A DNA stretch of 64,000 nucleotides. It comes from Epinephelus fuscoguttatus. Taxonomy: Eukaryota > Chordata > Actinopteri > Perciformes > Serranidae. This document shows positions 9,239-63,200 of the stretch, piece by piece. The notes below the pieces were generated by a model that was given only the letters and a program-made list of their open reading frames with translations, was not told the DNA's origin and did no database searches. Every line of letters starts with the position of its first letter. Within the stretch, counting starts at the first letter, position 1. The stretch is from contig NC_064771.1 of the NCBI RefSeq assembly GCF_011397635.1, positions 18,105,379 to 18,169,378 on the forward strand. The letters run 5' to 3'. The position numbers and the translations under genes were made by a program.

Positions 9239-25274
<16,036 letters not shown>

Positions 25275-28689: not shown

Positions 28690-29675
28690 TTCTTTTTCCA
28701 AAACCTAACTACTTGCTTTTGTTGCCTAAACCTAACCACATGTTTTTGATGCCGAAACCTAACCACATGTTTTTGATGCCTAAACCTAACCACATGTTTT
28801 TGATGCCGAAACCTTAACATGTGTTTTTGTTGTCTAAACCTAACCACATGTTGTTGTTAACTAAATCTAACCACATGTTTTTGTTGCCTAAACCTAACTG
28901 CGTGTTTTTGTTGCCTAAACTTAACCACATGTTTTTGTTGCCTAAACCTAACCATGTGTTTTCTTTGTCTAAACCTAACCACATGTTTTTGTTGCCTAAC
29001 CTAACCACGTTTTTGTTGCCTAACCTAACCACGTGTTCTTGTTGCCTAAACCTAACCATGTGCTTTCTTTGTCTAAACCTAACCACATGTTTTTGTTGCC
29101 TAACCTAGCCACATGTTTTTGTTGCCTAAACCTAACCACATGTTTTTGTTGCCTAAACCTAACCATGTGCTTTCTTTGTCTAAACCTAACCACATGTTTT
29201 TGTTGCCTAACCTAACCACATGTTTTTGTTGCCTAACCCTAACCCGTGTTTTTGTTGCCTAAACCTAACCACATGTTTTTGTTGCCTAAACCTAACCATG
29301 TGTTCTTGTTGCCTAAACCTAACCACATGTTCTTGTTGCCTAAACCTAACCATGTGCTTTCTTTGCCTAAACCTAACCACATGTTTTTGTTGCGTAAACC
29401 TAACCATGTGTTCTTGTTGCTTAGACCTACTGTAACCACATGTTCTTGTTGCCTAAACCTAACCACATGTTCTTGTTGCCTAAACCTAACCATGTGCTTT
29501 CTTTGCCTAAACCTAACCACATGTTTTTGTTGCGTAAACCTAACCACATGTTCTTGTTGCTTAGACCTACTGTAACCACATGTTCTTGTTGCCTAAACCT
29601 AACCATGTGTTTTTGTTGCCTAAACCCAACCACTTGCTTTTGTTGCCTAAACCCCACCATGTGTGATTGTTGTTG
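28690..29675. repeat. minisatellite with CCTAAACCTAACC core, about 27-bp unit
   Basis: Roughly 36 tandem units alternate the core CCTAAACCTAACC with ACATGTTTTTGTTG or ATGTGCTTTCTTTG spacers. A higher-order pattern is visible: a block with tgcgtaaacctaacc and cttagacctactgtaacc occurs twice, near 29390-29440 and 29530-29580. Frames on both strands stay open for up to 109 codons only because the unit length is a multiple of three. Those frames are not genes. Confidence 0.9.
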
Positions 29676-31450
29676 AAGGAAAAAAAAGGTCAATTCACGT
29701 TTGGTTGTGCCGACGTCTATTTTGAAAGAGACTGTATGTAAACTTTACATTTCCTGTGAAAATGGAAGTGTATCTTGAAAGAAGACAATGCATGTAACAG
29801 GCAGAACTTGACACAGTGTCCTAGAACATCAACAACCAACGCACCCAGGATACCTTTCACTTTGTATGTGGATGTGGAAAATCCACGTCCAAGTACATCA
29901 ATATGTGACGAGGTCGGAAGCGAGAATGTCTTGAAATAACATACGTTTTAATCTTTGGGATTGGGGGTAAGGTGTCAAGTATTTTCAAGTTAAAAAGGCT
30001 CAAGTCCAAGTGAAGGCCTAAATCAGTGCTGTAAAGGATAAAGTCCATCTACCTTGATGGAAAATAACAAACAAGTCTACATTTGGGAGTGATAGATTGT
30101 AAAAAAAAAATCATGCTGTGTTTGGTTCTTCCTCAAGCAGTATATCAGAATAAAAGACTTGAAGCGAAAGGGAGTACAAGAGGCAAAGCTGGGGGAAGCA
30201 AAAGTAGGATGAAACGTGCAGTCTGCAACTGTTGTGAGGACAGAATGAAGTTTGCCTTATCCATAAACCTGCAACATATAAATATAGGCTACCTAAGTTT
30301 TCTTTCACAATTGAATGTCTGACAACTAACTACGCTTCCTCATGTGAATTCTGTCTCCAGAGCTTGTTCGTGAACCTCTCCCTCAGCTGACAGCACCAGG
30401 ATCGACTCTGTAGAATCACATGAGGTTATTCTCTAGCATCCAGCTTGTAAGTAAATCCCTTTGGCTCCTAAACACATTTTCCTCCCTTCTCCACTGAGAG
30501 CGAGGAACTCCAGAAAAAACTTCTCTTCCTGGTTCTTTTTGTGGATTCCCTCAATCCTCACACTCATTGTAAGAGCTCAGAATGGAGAAGTGACATTAGA
30601 CTGCTCAGTGCAAGTACTAATGTAAGGATTAAGCAGAGATTAACAGGCTCTTCTTGATTCCATTAAGAGTAGCTATTCCATGTTGAAGCCTGTGCTCAGC
30701 CAGAGGAGGCGGTACTTCTAATAGTTTAAGGACCTAACAAAAATACGGTGAGTGAAATAACATCTGTGATAACCAAGAAAAACAATAGACTGTATGAGGT
30801 AAATGGACAAGCTTTTTATTTATTGTATTTTTATTGTATTTTTGTGCATAAAATGTTACAGTGCACAGGCAGTCAGTGTTATAGTGGAGTCCATAATGAA
30901 GTTACAACATTCACGAAAAAAAACAAACATCTTTCACATTGACAGAAGAATACAGTATCAGAAGCACAGTGTCATCACCCCCCTCCTCAGTTTCTCTGAT
31001 GGTTCAGTCCAGTGCAATAAGCATCGAAGGGAATGCTGGGAAAGTGGAAGGCTTTGATTAAATGAAGCTGTGATTTAAAAAAAGACTACATGTTATTATG
31101 AGACTGCAGTAGAACATGTGACAAAATAGGTGATTCAAATAATCCAAATACAACACAATACTATTTGGAATTAAAGGTATATTCACCTAAAATAGACAAA
31201 TAAAATATTGAAAATAAAAGCTCAAACATGCGTTGTTAGTAACTTGAATATTGTACTCAGATTGCCATTTCACAATATCCATTTGTCAGCATCCAGTTTC
31301 CTCATTTTGTTTCTGATTTTCCTGAGTTGCACAGTACCTTTTAGGTGTCCTTTCATTTTTTAAATTTTCCTTTTAAATTTTAGATTCTGGGTAACATGAT
31401 CCTTCATTAGCATCAGCATTCATCCTAACAAACTCACTGATAATAAAAAT

Positions 31451-32760
31451 TAGGGATGCACTGATCCAATTCTGACTCAAACAACTGCACTGACTCTAAG
31501 TTACATGGGTCGATCTATTTAATACAATTCTACATTTACAGCTGCTGTATCATCTTATATTTGTAGTAAATTCCTGTTTTCACTGAACATTTACAAAAGA
31601 ATTTGCTTCCTTTTTATTTTGTATATTTGGTATTTATCAAGCTTGTTTGCACTTAATTGTGATTTAATGTTTATATTTTGTTCTCATTTCTTGCAGATGT
31701 ATTACTGGAATTTTGACTCTTACTTAACTTTTGACTCATCTGTTGCTGCATTTTTACTAACGAAGATTTTTTTTTACCAAGTTGCACAATTTATTATTTT
31801 AATAATGAAATAACAATTCAGGAAATTCATATTGATTTATTTGTTACATTTTGTTTTACAATATTAGGAAATCAATGTTTAAGTCAAGCCTGATGTTGCC
31901 TTACACATAAAGAATGATAGCGGTCACTTCCACACAGTGAAGCATACATCTTTCTAATTAAAGGTCCAATGTGTAAGATTTTATATATTTGGAGAAATGG
32001 AATGTTACATAATAAGTATTGTTTCTTTCGTTTTTTTAATCACCTGAAAATAAGAATCATCAAATTTTTGTCATCCCAGAATGAGCCATTTGGATCTACA
32101 AAAGGAGCGGATCCTTATCCATGGAGCTCACCATGTTGCACGGCCATGTTTCTACAGTAGCCCTGCATGGACAAACAAAAGTGTCTCTAGATAGGGCCAT
32201 ATGCGCTTTCGTGTTTTTGCGTTTTTGTGTTGGCCACCATAGTTAGCAAACCCACTGTGACGAGCCGAACAGCATCAGAAAAATTGATTTTTAATGTGAA
32301 ACTACTTTACGTAGTGTTTTTACTGGTTTAAATCCGTGGATCCATTTGTTTCGGGTAGGAAGAGACATCTGAGGATAATTCAGCTCCTGGTAAAATCTCT
32401 TTGAACATCTGGATCTTAAGTTATCAGAGATAAAAGGACATTAGCAGGTGCTAGGCTAACAGCCTGTCTGTGGTGAGCCAAACGGCATTGGAAACACTTT
32501 AAAAACTTTGCTTTATTCAGTGTTTTTCCCACTTTTAGTCACCTAGCCTATTTGGGGGAGGAGGAGACTTCTGGAGATAATTTGGCTCCCAGTAAAAACC
32601 TCCTTAACTTTGATAACTGAAGGAATCCTAAGTCGGAGTTCATGCTTGCACATTGGAGAAGTCTCGGCTGGTTGCAATCTGCAGATGCCAGTAAATCCTA
32701 GACACTGCTCGTTCAAACACCAATACTGGATCGGTACTCTCTCTACTCAGTGCATCCCTA
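31451..32760. mobile_element. hAT-type element carrying an inserted repeat
   Basis: The left end tagggatgcactgatcc (31451) and right end ggatcggtac...cagtgcatcccta (32760) are inverted copies of a common fish hAT terminus. Flanks ataaaaat and aacaaaat agree at 6 of 8 positions. Most of the inside is a second repeat (31965-32700). No transposase is encoded. Confidence 0.6.
31965..32700 (+). repeat. interspersed teleost repeat, copy 2
   Basis: It starts aaaggtccaatgtgtaagat and matches the copy at 20944-21720 block by block in the same orientation. It is nested inside the hAT-type element at 31451-32760. Confidence 0.6.
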
Positions 32761-32909
32761 AACAAAATGAAAAATCCAAAAGACATAAAACACCCCAGTA
32801 TACCAACTGACAGTGTCTGTCTGATAAACTGTTTGCTTTGAGAGATTATTACTTTAGTTTTGGTTTACACACACTGATTATCTGTGTAATGCCACAGGAC
32901 TTTTGAGTC

Positions 32910-32915
32910 TTTATT
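32910..32915 (-). terminator. poly(A) signal AATAAA of the CX9C gene
   Basis: AATAAA on the minus strand lies about 75 bases past the TGA at 32993-32991. This is the expected position for a short 3' UTR and supports a real transcription unit. Confidence 0.6.
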
Positions 32916-32990
32916 CAGGAACAAAAACCCAATGATAATAGTTTGTCATTTGTGTGAACTTACATTTTATAAAGATGTACTTCTCATGTA

Positions 32991-33995
32991 TCACGATCCC
33001 TCAGACAGGGCTTTTATACAGGCCTGGAAGGCATCTATCAGATCTTTACAGTCCTCTGCTCCCTTCTCTCTGACACTGAAACACAAAGCTGGATTTATAA
33101 ACCACACTTAACACTCTCTGCACACACTGCTGCGTTATCCTCTCTGGCATATAACATGGTTTCAGGTCAAACAGTGCAAATTTGCATGATGTAGAACAAA
33201 TGAACACATCCACTGGAAACTGTGGAGGAAATAAATCTTTAAATTTAGTCTACGCGCATCAAAGGGATTATTACAGTATAGCCTGATAATAATATTTCAG
33301 CTCAAACCCACACAGCTGCTTTTATCTGCGTTCGCTGACGTACGAGAGGAAGATTGAGTAATACGTGCAGCGGCTCCACTAACACTAATCACAGCTGCAC
33401 TTGGACACACACCAAACGTCTGTCGCTCTTTCATGTAACACGAACCAGCAGCCTGGAATGTGCTGATTCTCTGCTATAGGTCATACATGTGGAAGCCTAT
33501 TTTAAACCTCAGGTCTATCTGTGCTTCTCAAGACCTTCATGTCACTGTAAGGGCCTGCTGTAAATGTCATGACACTTAGTCTTGTGATGTAGAGTGGATT
33601 CACTGCAAGTTAAGTTACAGTAAGTCTAATTAGAGTTAATGATCACCCCATAGGCACTCTTACAAGTTGAGGAGTTAATATGAATCCACAGGACGTCATG
33701 CATACAACTCAGTAATGATGACTGAGAATGGCCCGAGGGGTGTAATTGAAAGTGACCAGGATTTAGCTGGAGCCCAAAACACAGCCACAAGTCTTCCTTA
33801 ACGGCTCAAAGTTATACAAAGACACACTTAGACACCAATGACTCTCACTTTGGCTAGTGCAAATTTAATGCATTTGCATAAATACCTTTCTCAGCATTAA
33901 TAATTTCACATAATTCCTGTCAGAACTCACCATTTGTCAACGTCCTCTTTGATAACCTGGCATGGTGCTGGCACAGCTTCATTAGAGTCTGGCAT
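32991..33995 (-). CDS. small twin-CX9C protein, COX17-like (two coding exons, 49 residues)
   Basis: Exon 1 is 33931-33995 (ATG at 33995-33993, donor AAATG|gtgagt). Exon 2 is 32991-33075 (acceptor tttcag, TGA stop), and an intron of 855 bp splits a Cys codon. The product opens MPDSNEAVPAPC. It has two exact CX9C motifs, C12-C22 and C31-C41, separated by eight residues (VREKGAED), and ends CIKALSEGS. Twin CX9C proteins fold into a disulphide-linked helical hairpin in the mitochondrial intermembrane space, imported by the MIA40 relay. The 9-8-9 spacing and the EKGxxxCxxLIxAxxxC pattern resemble COX17, the copper chaperone of cytochrome oxidase. However, the copper-binding Cys pair before the first CX9C is absent, so copper delivery is doubtful. 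Splice phase, exact spacing and a poly(A) signal at 32915-32910 support a real gene. The orthologue and function are unknown to me. Confidence 0.72.
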
Positions 33996-33999
33996 TTTG

Positions 34000-34145
34000 A
34001 CAGAGGAGAGCTGGAGTTTGTGGTGGTTGTGCGCTGCTTCAGGAGCTGCAGTCAAGTATGGTTACAGATTAGTTCCAGAGATGGAGGGTAAGAGACAGTG
34101 AGGGAGGGAGGGAGGAGGGGAGGAGGGGAGGACAGTGACCGTGTG
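34000..34145 (-). promoter_or_regulatory. probable 5' UTR and promoter side of the CX9C gene
   Basis: This is the DNA immediately upstream of the ATG on the minus strand. It includes a purine-rich (GGGA/GGAGG) tract on the plus strand at about 34095-34135. No TATA box or defined start site can be named, and a further non-coding exon upstream is possible. Confidence 0.3.
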
Positions 34146-35330
34146 CGGTGAACTCGGAAGAAATTAATCATATGCAAGAAATTCTAACTTTAATTTCTAG
34201 TCTTGTTATTTATGTTATGATGAAATGAGTTCTTTGTCTCTGATATTCTTTCCTATTTATGTTCATCAACCTTTAAAACTCAGGTGTTCTTAAATGCTTT
34301 CATTCCTGTTCTTTGTTTTACCGTCTTCCTAATGAATATGCAGATGGCTGACCTTTTGAGTCAAGCGTTATGCATTACAAAGACCTCATAATGCATCTAA
34401 AATACTCACTACAGGGGAGGGCCTTTTTCCTGAAGAGAGCCTGGAAAGCCTGGCTTTGTTTTACGCTGCTTTGTTGGCTTAAGAGGTGGAGAGTTGTTGC
34501 ATTTGCTTCACCAATAAAATGTCAAATTGGCATTGAAGGCAGTGTTAGAAGGGATGTAACTAATAGTCTGAAAATAAGATGAAAATAAAAGCACATCAGT
34601 GAGGTTAATACTTTGCAGGAACACACTTTTGTTTCTTATTTTGAACATCCAAATGATCTTGTCCCGGTTGTGTTACATTTATCTACACAGCAGCATGCAT
34701 TTGAGCATTCCGAGATTTACTACACTGAAACTTTTTGTCCCACAGTCAAAGGTTTTTCATCATACATCAGCAAACCTCTTGTAAGCACATACACTAATGA
34801 ACATACATAGCTTTTTACCTAAGAAAAAGGGGAAGACACCTTTTCCTAATTCTGGATGGGGGAAAAAAAGGATGGCAATTATTCAGCTGCAAAAAAAATA
34901 AATAAATAAAAAAATACAAATGCCACTTTCCCTCCATCAGAATCAATACCAACAACTGAGCAAAGTTACAATAAATAACAAGTAGCACTTTCTTGTCCAA
35001 TAATGTAATGACGTGTTAATGTTAATTGAAGTCAATTGAAATATGTAAATACTGTGTAAATTTGGGGGTAAAATAATGATTATTTAAAAGAAATGACAGT
35101 AAATGAAAACAATGACTAAATGTATTTCCATCACTGTGCATGTAATACAGGACAAAACATAGGAGATGCTTTGTCTCCTTTGATTTGTACATATGACACA
35201 GGAATACCTATTTTGGTCATATTTAGAGATATAAAACATTGTGCAAAGTGTTGGCAGTTAGCAGCTTCAGCAGGCTACAAGAGAATCTGCATCAGACTTC
35301 TATCTTAAAACAATATTATAATAATAATGA
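34146..35330. other. intergenic DNA, nothing identified
   Basis: AT-rich DNA between the CX9C gene and the LINE fragment. Reading frames are short and have no domain resemblance. An A-rich, AAAT-like run occurs near 34890-34918. Confidence 0.5.
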
Positions 35331-35334
35331 TAAA

Positions 35335-35990
35335 CTTTATTTATAAAGGGCTTTTCAAAACAAAGTTACAAAGTGTTTTACATGGTTGATCCTGGATTTG
35401 AAACAATGGTGAATTCAAGCAAATAAAATGAGGCAATTTTAAGAAAATACAAAGAACAATAAAAATAAAATAAAGATAAAATACCGTCTCTGAAGCAGAT
35501 AAGCTAAGTTGGCCATAAATTGCGAAATAAAAGAATACAATAACTGATGACAACACAAATGAGACATATGTAAGATAAGCAGTATGCTAAAACTAATAAA
35601 GGCTTTTTTGAACAGATTAGTTTCAAGAAGTAATTTAGAAGATGTCACCGATTCAGCAAGCCTCAGATCCTCAGGCAGGGAGCTCCAGAGCTGAGGGTCC
35701 TTGACTGCAAATGCCCGGTCACCTCTAGTTTTGAGCCGAGACTGAGGGACAGCCAACCGATCCCTATCTGAGCATCTGAGGCTTCGACCTAGCTCACAGG
35801 GGAGCAGCATCTCAGCAATGTAGCTGGGGGTAAAGCCATGAAGTGCCTTAAAAGTTAACATCTTAAAATCAATTCTAAAACTGACTGGTAACCAGTAAAG
35901 AGAAACTGAAACAGAGCTGATATGGTCATGTTTTCTAGTGTCAGTTAAAAGCTGAGCAGCTGCATTTTGCAGAAACCTTATGGCTGAGGC
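35335..35990 (-). pseudogene. non-LTR retrotransposon 3' fragment (LINE C-terminal coding remnant)
   Basis: The minus strand encodes LTFKALHGFTPSYIAEMLLP, then RSLRCSDRDRLAVPQSRLKT and RGDRAFAVKDPQLWSSLPED (about 35610-35861). This is the C-terminal pattern of fish LINEs of the L2/CR1/Rex type. The plus-strand start ataataataatgataaact matches the simple-repeat tail of such elements. The reverse transcriptase domain is missing and the fragment is dead. The clade was not settled. Confidence 0.55.
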
Positions 35991-37190
35991 TCTACAATAA
36001 CTTGATTTGTAACTGGTTTATGAGGCATGAATAGCTTAACCTGTTTCCTTAATAGCTGCCACCTTAGTTTGGTGTGGTGATGCTGGCATTATTGCACAGG
36101 AGTGCATGTATGGAAAAATGCACATGTAATGACAATGGGTAATAGACTGGCTGATTGCAGATTGGCTGCTCATCATCTGTTTTGTGAATGAGTGATTGTT
36201 TTCAGAATGTACTTGTACTTCTTTACACTAAGAGACAGGGAAACATTTGGAGGTGTTGTGTTTTACACGTTATTATGTAGTGGTTTCAATGATGTAACTA
36301 GGCTGTATGTGGCCCATGAACTAAAATGAGTTTACCACCCTTGTTGTGGTCACTCAGTAAGTACAGTATTTTAGTTACAGAATCTAACTTCACCACTAGA
36401 GGGCAACAAACACTCATACACCATAGTCATATACAGAGATTATCTGGACAAATGGGCCTCCAGTGTGTGCATCATTGTTACCTGTAAACAAAAGAGATCA
36501 CATTTACATTCAGCTTTAATACCTAGTTTAGATGCATGTTCATGTATTATAATACTATTCTGATATTATTTTAGTCGGTGTGTGCAACTGGAGGCAGTGA
36601 CAGGTTAATATGATGGGAAACCCAATCACAGTGTCTCAGTACACCCTGGTCAAAATATTAAAAGTGAGAAACAGCATCTCTCTGGATCAGCTCCCAGTGA
36701 TTCGTCCTGCTTTATAATGACCATAAAATCCAGTGTGCCATCTGCTGGTGTACAAATCAAGTGCATACAAGCTCTGGCAGGCAGGTTCTCTAAATAATAA
36801 AATCAGGACTATATAGTGATAATAACATGGACTACAACGGGTATTGGTGTCTTTATGAATTTTAGCAAATGTACGGAATAAATGCCCCCCTATGCAAAGT
36901 GGTGCTGAGAAGCAAATTGCAGCCTAATTAAGCATCTGACTGGAGGCAGGAAATGCCACTGTCTCTCAAACAGCCTGCACAATTCGGATGTGAATTTGCA
37001 AAGCGACCGAAGGCCTATTTAAATCTGGTTTTCACTGGAAATATTTTCGCACTCGAATGCGTCTCAGCCAATCGCAGCGTACGGGGACAGACAGCTGACT
37101 TATTTTTGTTCGTGTAAAATGTAGTCTAAGTCAATATTCAGCCTCTCGGTACGATGAAAATCTGGAAAAAGCATGCAGGGCTGGCTGGCA
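35991..37190. other. intergenic DNA upstream of prr12
   Basis: No gene is recognised. Common fish intergenic wording such as accactagagggcaacaaac (36393-36412) occurs. CpG content begins to rise from about 37000, toward the prr12 promoter. Confidence 0.45.
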
Positions 37191-38133: not shown

Positions 38134-54384
<16,251 letters not shown>

Positions 54385-60248: not shown

Positions 60249-63200
60249 AAATGTCTCATTCTAAACCACTGCTCATCCCTTGGCTGCGGACCCAGATTGA
60301 CAGCAAAAGGTATCCTGGTGTCCAGTGGACGAACCTGGAGCAAACCGAGTTCTCCATCCCGTGGAAACATGCTTTAAGACAGGACTCCTCCGACATGGAC
60401 ATCCTCATCTTTAAGGTGACAGTCACACTCAGTCATCATAAATAACACGATTCTAAAAAACTCCCTGCCTTTAACCTGCGTCCTTAACCTGCAGGCCTGG
60501 GCAGAGGGGAGTGGCAATGGGCGGGTTCATGGGGACCCCTCGGTGTGGAAGAGGAACTTCCGCAGCGCCCTCCGAGCCAAAGGCTTCAAACTGGTCAGCG
60601 ACAACAAGAACGACCCTGCTAACCCCCATAAAGTGTTTCGCTGGCCGGATGAGCCAACATCAGGAGGTGAGGATCCACCAGTGCGCCCATAGACAGTCAG
60701 TCCTTTATTGCAAGGGCGTAGGTTTCTTTCAACACTTGGGTGGATGTTAATGAAACGGGTGGTTTGGGGATTCTCCGCCAGAAATTTTTGAGCATCAAAC
60801 ACTTATTTCCTGTATTCTGGTGATTTTAATGCACCAACTTGTGCCTTATCTGCATCAATTTATGGTGTAAATGTGGTGAAAATGTCTTATTTATTTATCT
60901 ATTGAGGGGGGCATGTCCCCCGTGTCCCCCCTGAAATTTACACTGATGCTTTATGTAGTGGACACCAGGCCAGCTGATAAAGGACTGTTTCCTCTGATGA
61001 TCTGTACCTAAAGCTATGTAATGACATGTGTATGTGTTCTGTATTCACTGGCATTAAATGGATTTGAAAACAAAAAAGCACCTTTCCATCAATGTGGCCA
61101 CATACCAGGGGCATTGTAGTCTACTATTTGCGTTGTAGTCGGGGAACGTGGGACTGATTACCCAGGGCCCCAATGGGAGGGCGGTCCTAGAAATGCCTGG
61201 GATTAAACACTGTCTGCAGTTTTTTATTTTTAATTAATTTGTGCTATACCTAAATTATAATTGCGGCAATTAATGGGTTGAAAGACTGTATGAAAAACAG
61301 TGAAGCTTTTAGAGACCCCTTTCCCCTCAGGTACAAATGGTTTAGTTCACCCTTGCACTTTTTATTGCTGCTAGGCAACCACCCCATCGCGTCCTTACAC
61401 TAACCATCCCGTATAATCGATCTACCATTTTTTGTTTGTTTGTTTTTCACAGTAATTAGTAGCTAGTTCATAAAATGTTGAGGCAGAGGGAAGTGGCTGT
61501 GGCTCTGGTTGAGCGTGAGAGGCTGTCAGTAGATGGTTTGTCGGCACAGATAAACTGAGATCTGTGTGGGGACATGAGACCCTAATAAAGAGGGTGGATC
61601 ACGGGGAGTACCACCAGTTGGTCCAGGAGCTTCTCCTCGATGATGGCCGTCTCCAGGCATATTTTAGGATGACTCGTGGGCAGTTTGACAACCTGCTGTC
61701 TATGGTCGGGCCGTATAGCTCTGGGTATCCACCAACCACTACCATCAGTTTCTCCTCTATTCTTTACCAACTGTAAACTTGTTGTCAAGACCAAGTTTTT
61801 TCAACTCAAGGAGTTCAGAGCGCTCTGGCAAAAAGCTTCAATCTCATTAACAACAAATACAAAAAGGCGCCTCCAGCTCCTAAAACGCTTTCAGTGCAAA
61901 CGAGGCCTTATGTTGCTGGAGCACCAACGTACACTGTGATGTCTTTCCCCAAGAAATCAAGGTACCACAAAAAGAAAGAAAGGAAAGGGAAAGAAAGGAT
62001 CAAGAGAGGAAGGACAGGGGGCCCCACAGAGACTGCTTATGTATAGGCCCCAGAATTTGGTTCTACGCCCCTGCCACATACACCACATATCTGACCTCCT
62101 TACCTGATTTGATCATATTACTGTCTGTTTTGCATACATTTATGTCCGGATTTATGTCTCTGTGGTTGAGATTTGTCAAGGTAGTATGCAAATTCTGAGC
62201 CAATACCATTTGTAAAGGGGATTAGAGGGAGGATTAAAGAGGTGTTTCTGAGGCGAATAAATGATTCAAAGATAGCGAGCTGCAGATGTTAACTAAGCTT
62301 CTTTGCTTTCACTCTCAAAGCTAACTCCTCTGCTGGATCCCAGGACCAAGATGACGCTGATTTGTTTGAGGATTACGGCTTTCCTATACAAGAAGTAAGC
62401 AGCTGTGTTAGTGGGTTGTAAAATGTAAATGCTGTGAAATTAAAACATGTTATTGAATTGATTTGATGATTTGTGTTTCTGTGATATCTCAGAGCCAGGT
62501 CGTCCCATGCTTTGATCACTATCTTCAAGCCGGTAAGGGACTATTTATTATCTGGTGAATGAATTTTTGTGTCTCCGAAGGTAAATGTGAATATTCCCAG
62601 AAATGCTCGCTAATTTGGAATCACTTGTCTGAATATTTCTGAACCCATCACTGTGTGCCAGCAGACTCCCCTGCCGGCCAGGATATTCTCCAGGAGTGTT
62701 TAAAGGAACTGAACATTGGCCCTGAACCAGGTATCAGCTCTGCTCGTCATTTCCTCCTCGCTGCTGCAGTGTGAGCAGAAAACAAGAGTATCTAAGTTAC
62801 TTTTTTCCTAGAAACACTTTTTCAGTTTCTCCAACTTTTCCACAGAGGGCACCGCAGGCTTTGAGCCTCCTCCTGAGCAACAACAGCTCCAAAACCCGGT
62901 TGTGATTGGTGGACATGCGTTGCCTGAGCAACAGCAGTATCCAGTAATGTCTGAGGGTGCAGTCGGTGAAGCTGGGTTGCCTGAGCAACCGGCACATCCA
63001 ATGGAGGGAGCCGTGGGAGGAGCCTGTGATGGGCAGTTGGTGGAGCAGTTTCTTCATACTATTACCAAGACCAGTGATAGAGATAATTTCAGTAAGTTGG
63101 ATTTTACTGATTTGCACAGACACTAAAAATGACATCCTTCACAAAATATTAACATGGTATATCTTCAGTAAGGCCATAAAAACAATGTGGCCTGTTAATA

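Follow-up and report, generated by a model that had tools for sequence, protein, structure and literature searches.

What holds twin-CX9C peptides in the intermembrane space is MIA40-dependent oxidation, which folds them into a helical hairpin with two disulfides; the cysteine that docks to MIA40 is flanked by suitably placed hydrophobic or aromatic residues. TRIAP1 and NDUFS5 are twin-CX9C proteins, and a genome-wide survey of such proteins was reportedly made by Cavallaro in 2010. Among these proteins COX17 hands copper on to SCO1/2 and COX11. The described protein closest to the locus reported here is COX17, known as a copper carrier, whose cysteines are conserved from yeast to human and in which Cu(I) is held by the vicinal cysteines of a CCXC motif; in the yeast protein, copper binding is described as being abolished only when residues 23 and 24 are both mutated (PMC7909247). 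The same source describes COX19 and CHCHD7/Cox23, which share the twin-CX9C layout, as complex IV factors, in each of which one cysteine of the three in CCXC remains (PMC7909247). Yeast Cox17 is also reported to bind Mic60 and to affect MICOS, with copper promoting that contact (PMC4463469). For Arabidopsis, two duplicate COX17 genes are tabulated (PMC6696091), and in Tetrahymena a COX17-like protein, COX17L, is named among the ciliate-specific subunits of complex IV (PMC10227065). Among the literature matches listed, which were open-licence papers, none described a COX17 paralogue that lacks the two copper-binding cysteines.

Here we describe a locus in the grouper Epinephelus fuscoguttatus, lying in a stretch of 64,000 nucleotides that was analysed as a whole and that we refer to as the window. 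It is very probably a real, constrained and protein-coding cox17 paralogue without the copper site, carried in two copies beside two brsk1 genes.

Gene structure and kinship with cox17

On the minus strand of the window, joining 33995-33931 to 33075-32991 yields a 49-residue frame that is open from ATG to stop, MPDSNEAVPAPCQVIKEDVDKCVREKGAEDCKDLIDAFQACIKALSEGS, with cysteines at positions 12, 22, 31 and 41. This is the COX17-type layout, C-X9-C-X8-C-X9-C. Coding exon 1 (33931..33995, minus strand, 65 nt) has an A at -3 relative to its ATG and runs to a terminal TG followed by gtgagt, encoding MPDSNEAVPAPCQVIKEDVDK and bases 1-2 of the Cys22 codon, while coding exon 2 (32991..33075, minus strand, 85 nt with the stop) encodes (C)VREKGAEDCKDLIDAFQACIKALSEGS. 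Between them lies a GT-AG intron of 855 nt in phase 2 (33076..33930, minus strand), which begins with GTGAGT, ends with TTTCAG and splits the second Cys codon between TG and T. An AATAAA polyadenylation signal (32910..32915, minus strand) follows 75 bases 3' of the stop. The original prediction, made from the letters of the window, had proposed a two-exon frame with two CX9C motifs spaced by eight, an intron with GT-AG borders that interrupts the second Cys codon, and an AATAAA about 75 bases past the stop; on re-reading, the exons, frame, spacing and stop were all as claimed, the intron borders were found at 33930/33076 and the signal at 32915-32910. No GC-rich promoter was found near exon 1 in 300-base windows from 32500 to 35499, where GC ranged from 0.29 to 0.48.

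Against the Pfam COX17 family (PF05051) the window copy scores 29.1 bits, above the curated cut-off of 24.9, and the five other Pfam families listed for it all fall below their own cut-offs. COX19 and CHCHD7/Cox23, by contrast, are separate families, PF05051 alone passing its cut-off among the families listed. When the window copy was searched against PDB sequences, the first four of its 12 matches were COX17 chains (E 0.00055 to 0.39, best 0.00055). With COX17 (human 2rn9/2rnb, yeast 1u96) it shares the 9-8-9 cysteine spacing and the EKG and LI(D/E)A core; it differs from COX17 in having Pro-Ala for the Cys-Cys of CCXC, a shorter N-terminus and a lower pI, and in lacking both the KPLKP stretch and the C-terminal GFKI.

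The true cox17 of the same genome lies on C13 (L001 1501-1790, minus strand; exon 1 1790-1681, exon 2 from 1582 down) and matches PF05051 at 78.3 bits. It encodes 64 residues, including PCCAC, from an exon 1 of 110 coding nt, an intron of 98 nt and an exon 2 of 85 nt with the stop. Its intron cuts the matching Cys codon, between TG and C, in the same phase as in the window copy, and the two second exons are equal in length. A comparison with the true cox17 of the same fish had been proposed as a check on the original prediction, and it found intron codon, phase and exon 2 length all in common. Because the intron is kept, where a processed copy would have none, the gene was duplicated as DNA. 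In a genome search with PF05051, which scored 23 candidates, the true cox17 was the only match listed. This exon-by-exon search did not list either of the two copper-free copies, so that further divergent copies could escape a search of this kind.

A second copy on C19

Searching the genome with the window peptide gave three matches, namely its own two exons and C19:39252726-39252806, at 63% identity; at the nucleotide level, a 56-nt match of 84% identity connects window 33028-33083, which takes in part of exon 2, with C19. The C19 copy is a frame of 57 residues, MSDSETAAAPAEAPVPAACATIKADLDKCVAEKGAEGCKDLMEAFAACVKSAAEGTS, with four cysteines, an exon 2 of 88 nt and a GT-AG intron of about 13.3 kb in the same codon and phase. 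Its exon 1, which ends at 39266075 in the same Cys codon with the donor GTAAGT, is the one of seven candidate frames listed, all ending in TG at a GT donor, that was selected for its frame, its donor and the place of its cysteine. In an alignment, the first exons of the two copies have the same residue at 13 of the 21 whole codons of the window exon, and BLAST found no similarity between these two exons; their kinship is thus based on the alignment and on gene structure, not on BLAST.

The C19 copy also lies above the PF05051 cut-off, at 28.2 bits, and all six other families listed for it are below theirs. Within a 30-residue core the two copies are identical at 21 positions, each of them matches cox17 at 14, and at eight positions both agree with one another against cox17; both are also more acidic than cox17 (pI 4.3 vs 5.3). 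A profile of the three paralogues, which thus includes the true cox17, found human COX17 in the PDB with an E value of 2.9e-21. The 11 sequences that this search returned up to E 1 comprised COX17, TRIAP1, NDUFS5, a designed protein and ATPTB12, with CHCH proteins of the TRIAP1 and NDUFS5 type showing weak similarity (E 0.011 to 0.18). In the genome, a match on C16 (E 1.14) has an internal stop and was regarded as noise. Relatives were also sought in viral contigs and in prokaryote genome contigs, where none was confirmed among 79 and 89 pattern stretches respectively.

Neighbourhood and duplication of the block

The downstream neighbour of the window copy is brsk1 (11665..23879, minus strand), supported by Pfam and C19 matches, with an extent that is that of the detected frames and matches; Pfam places KA1_BRSK in 11665-12183 and UBA_BRSK in 18131-18364. 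The C19 copy in turn sits upstream of a second brsk1. Scattered repeat matches aside, 11 collinear matches connect window 16204-23879 with C19 39213000-39236925, and on both chromosomes these brsk1 matches are followed, on the same strand, by the cox17-like exon 2. The paralogue is therefore found in a collinear duplicated block, as expected of a teleost genome-duplication pair. With no outgroup in the comparison, the dating of the pair consists of a dS of 1.99 for brsk1 and of 3.8, which is saturated, for the cox17-like copies. The block duplication was probably the teleost whole-genome duplication, and parsimony supports a split from cox17 that came before it.

A long open exon at 41059..45924 (plus strand) was called prr12 in the original prediction; Pfam finds no family in it, and we use the name provisionally. 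Residues 1-597 of a 622-residue part of this neighbour, used as the query, match C19:506930-508639 at 61% identity. The whole match on C19 (506930-511089) is 38.7 Mb from the brsk1/cox17-like duplicate, so that the block came apart once it had been duplicated. C19 and C20 thus have duplicated genes in common, their order rearranged, as the teleost genome duplication would predict.

The position of the frame 5' of brsk1 raises the matter of whether the two are one unit. Twin-CX9C upstream reading frames are described in Drosophila, a possible parallel (PMC2276209), and a transcript common to the cox17-like frame and brsk1 may exist. However, a gene of its own is favoured over a brsk1 upstream frame by the AATAAA after the stop and by the roughly 9 kb that lie before the first brsk1 match.

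Three other parts of the window, 29621-29928, 61380-61895 and 35442-36017, each match at least two places in 80 kb of C19 and have the appearance of interspersed repeats. The last of them, on the minus strand, looks like a retroelement reading frame.

Absence of the copper site

At the position of the copper pair the window copy reads APAPC where the true cox17 reads PCCAC, Pro and Ala replacing Cys-Cys in the alignment. The C19 copy has no Cys-Cys either, and reads PAAC there, with Pro and Ala preceding Ala-Cys. The original prediction of a member of the COX17-like fold family without the copper Cys pair thus holds for the window copy and extends to the second one. As the pair is absent in both copies, its loss most simply predates their split.

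Possible roles of the protein

Both copies carry two CX9C motifs, which define the MIA40-dependent class, and around the putative docking Cys they read, by eye, CKDLIDAFQAC and CKDLMEAFAAC. We propose that an old DNA-level duplicate of cox17 would have lost its Cys-Cys copper site before its neighbourhood was duplicated, most likely in the teleost whole-genome duplication, after which the two copies would have been kept beside the two brsk1 genes. The peptide would be imported into the mitochondrial intermembrane space and oxidised there by MIA40/CHCHD4 to a two-disulfide helical hairpin, which would act through protein-protein contacts and would not carry Cu(I) as COX17 does. From the motifs and the altered copper site we can soundly infer a copper-free role in the intermembrane space, with copper chaperoning abandoned.

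What this role might be is suggested mainly by analogy. The likeliest job, for which we would put the case nearly but not quite as strong as the case against, is to assist or modulate, without copper, the assembly or the stability of cytochrome c oxidase. Contact with MIC60/MICOS would rank second and seems rather unlikely; given that copper promotes the Cox17-Mic60 contact, a copper-free role at MICOS is somewhat disfavoured. Another role in the intermembrane space would come third. More tentatively, the copies could belong to an as yet undescribed family of copper-free COX17-derived microproteins, paired since the teleost duplication. Their scaffold would then serve purely for protein-protein contact in the intermembrane space, as an adaptor or as a regulator of complex IV, and they might compete with COX17 for SCO1/2, COX11 or MIC60.

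A more specific mechanism within this reading, which we consider unlikely though worth weighing, is that the protein modulates copper transfer without itself binding copper, by attaching to COX17, SCO1/2 or COX11; it might, for instance, compete with COX17 or form a hetero-oligomer with it. COX19 and Cox23 act as complex IV factors with a single CCXC cysteine (PMC7909247) and offer a precedent for this, and the greater acidity of both copies would also be in keeping with it; however, the eight core positions at which they differ jointly from cox17 mean that the surface for contact with COX17 may be gone. Less likely again, and in our view improbable, is that it is built into a respiratory complex as an accessory structural subunit. 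The parallel here is COX17L of Tetrahymena, a COX17-like protein that is described as a subunit of ciliate complex IV (PMC10227065); it is ciliate-specific, and is likened to the window copy by description, not by sequence. The 11 sequences of the PDB profile search up to E 1 include no such subunit, and the ciliate COX17L is not listed among them either. To our knowledge, no COX17-like subunit of this sort occurs in vertebrate complex IV structures.

If the two copies are indeed a copper-free cox17 paralogue, then in this long-retained pair of animal proteins, which have no copper cysteines, the part played by the scaffold could be told apart from that of the metal, and non-chaperone roles such as the MICOS contact would have a natural test. 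It would also mean that genes for proteins this small, with some 50 residues divided between two exons, can be maintained for long and are easily overlooked.

Constraint on the reading frame

We compared the window and C19 copies by codon maximum likelihood over 49 codons, obtaining an omega of 0.088 with dN 0.33 and a saturated dS of 3.8. Because of this saturation omega is imprecise, values from 0.05 to 0.3 fitting about equally (lnL -326.2 to -327.3) and 0.5 being worse by 3.1 lnL units; over the same codons omega = 1 is rejected (2dlnL 15.7). Fits against cox17 over 34 codons gave an omega of 0.037 at dS 11 for the window copy, and for the C19 copy a dS of over 200; both fits are saturated and were set aside. 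The brsk1 pair, over 250 codons, has a dS of 1.99 and an omega of 0.026, a rate taken from the six of ten named exon frames that were ungapped and more than 80% identical, so that its dN is biased low, and from a codon set that probably includes some flanking non-exon residues. The copy pair therefore evolves faster than brsk1, yet under purifying selection.

These rates bear on whether the window copy could be an unprocessed pseudogene, that is, a decaying or recently silenced copy of cox17 whose frame is open by luck. Exon 2 taken alone (29 codons) would allow it, as neutrality is not rejected there (omega 0.36, 2dlnL just 3.26). Against this, omega over the whole frame is as low as given above, and two intact copies keep the start, the splice sites and all four cysteines. 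We simulated neutral evolution with substitutions only, no indels and equal rates, and counted the runs in which the ATG, the open frame, the four cysteines and the splice dinucleotides were kept. Under this scheme one copy survives with a frequency of 5.6e-3, 8.8e-5 and 2.6e-7 at 0.25, 0.5 and 0.9 substitutions per site. The lowest of these distances is about the per-copy distance implied by the omega = 1 fit (total dS 0.54), and since it is the distance of a truly neutral pair, both copies would survive neutrally with a probability of about 3e-5. Even the shortest distance in the simulation thus leaves neutral survival of both unlikely, and we regard a pseudogene as very improbable. A processed or unconstrained copy of cox17, named with the original prediction as the finding that would overturn it, is disfavoured by the kept intron, by the second intact copy and by an omega of 0.09 over the whole frame. 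Recent silencing of one of the two copies may have taken place.

Chance occurrence of the motif

We searched for two-exon frames of up to 120 residues with the 9-8-9 Cys pattern, a GTRAG donor, a YAG acceptor and an intron of 60-2000 nt. The window holds five such joins, the window copy and four others, three of which come from a minisatellite region (28-29.6 kb) and one of which passes through a brsk1 exon. In first-order Markov windows at least one such join occurred in 9 of 60, with a mean of 0.17. The twin-CX9C pattern on which the original prediction relied is thus modest evidence, with little beyond chance in it, and the bare motif was dropped as proof of a gene on account of these random windows. 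That two open stretches with no relation to each other happen to join into a mimic of a twin-CX9C protein, as these counts by themselves would permit, can be dismissed as vanishingly improbable because the window copy matches the COX17 profile above its cut-off, has its intron where the true cox17 has it and is matched by an intact paralogue with both exons on C19. The minisatellite itself (window 28701-29653) consists of 27-bp units in about 35 copies and is a source of spurious Cys-rich open frames.
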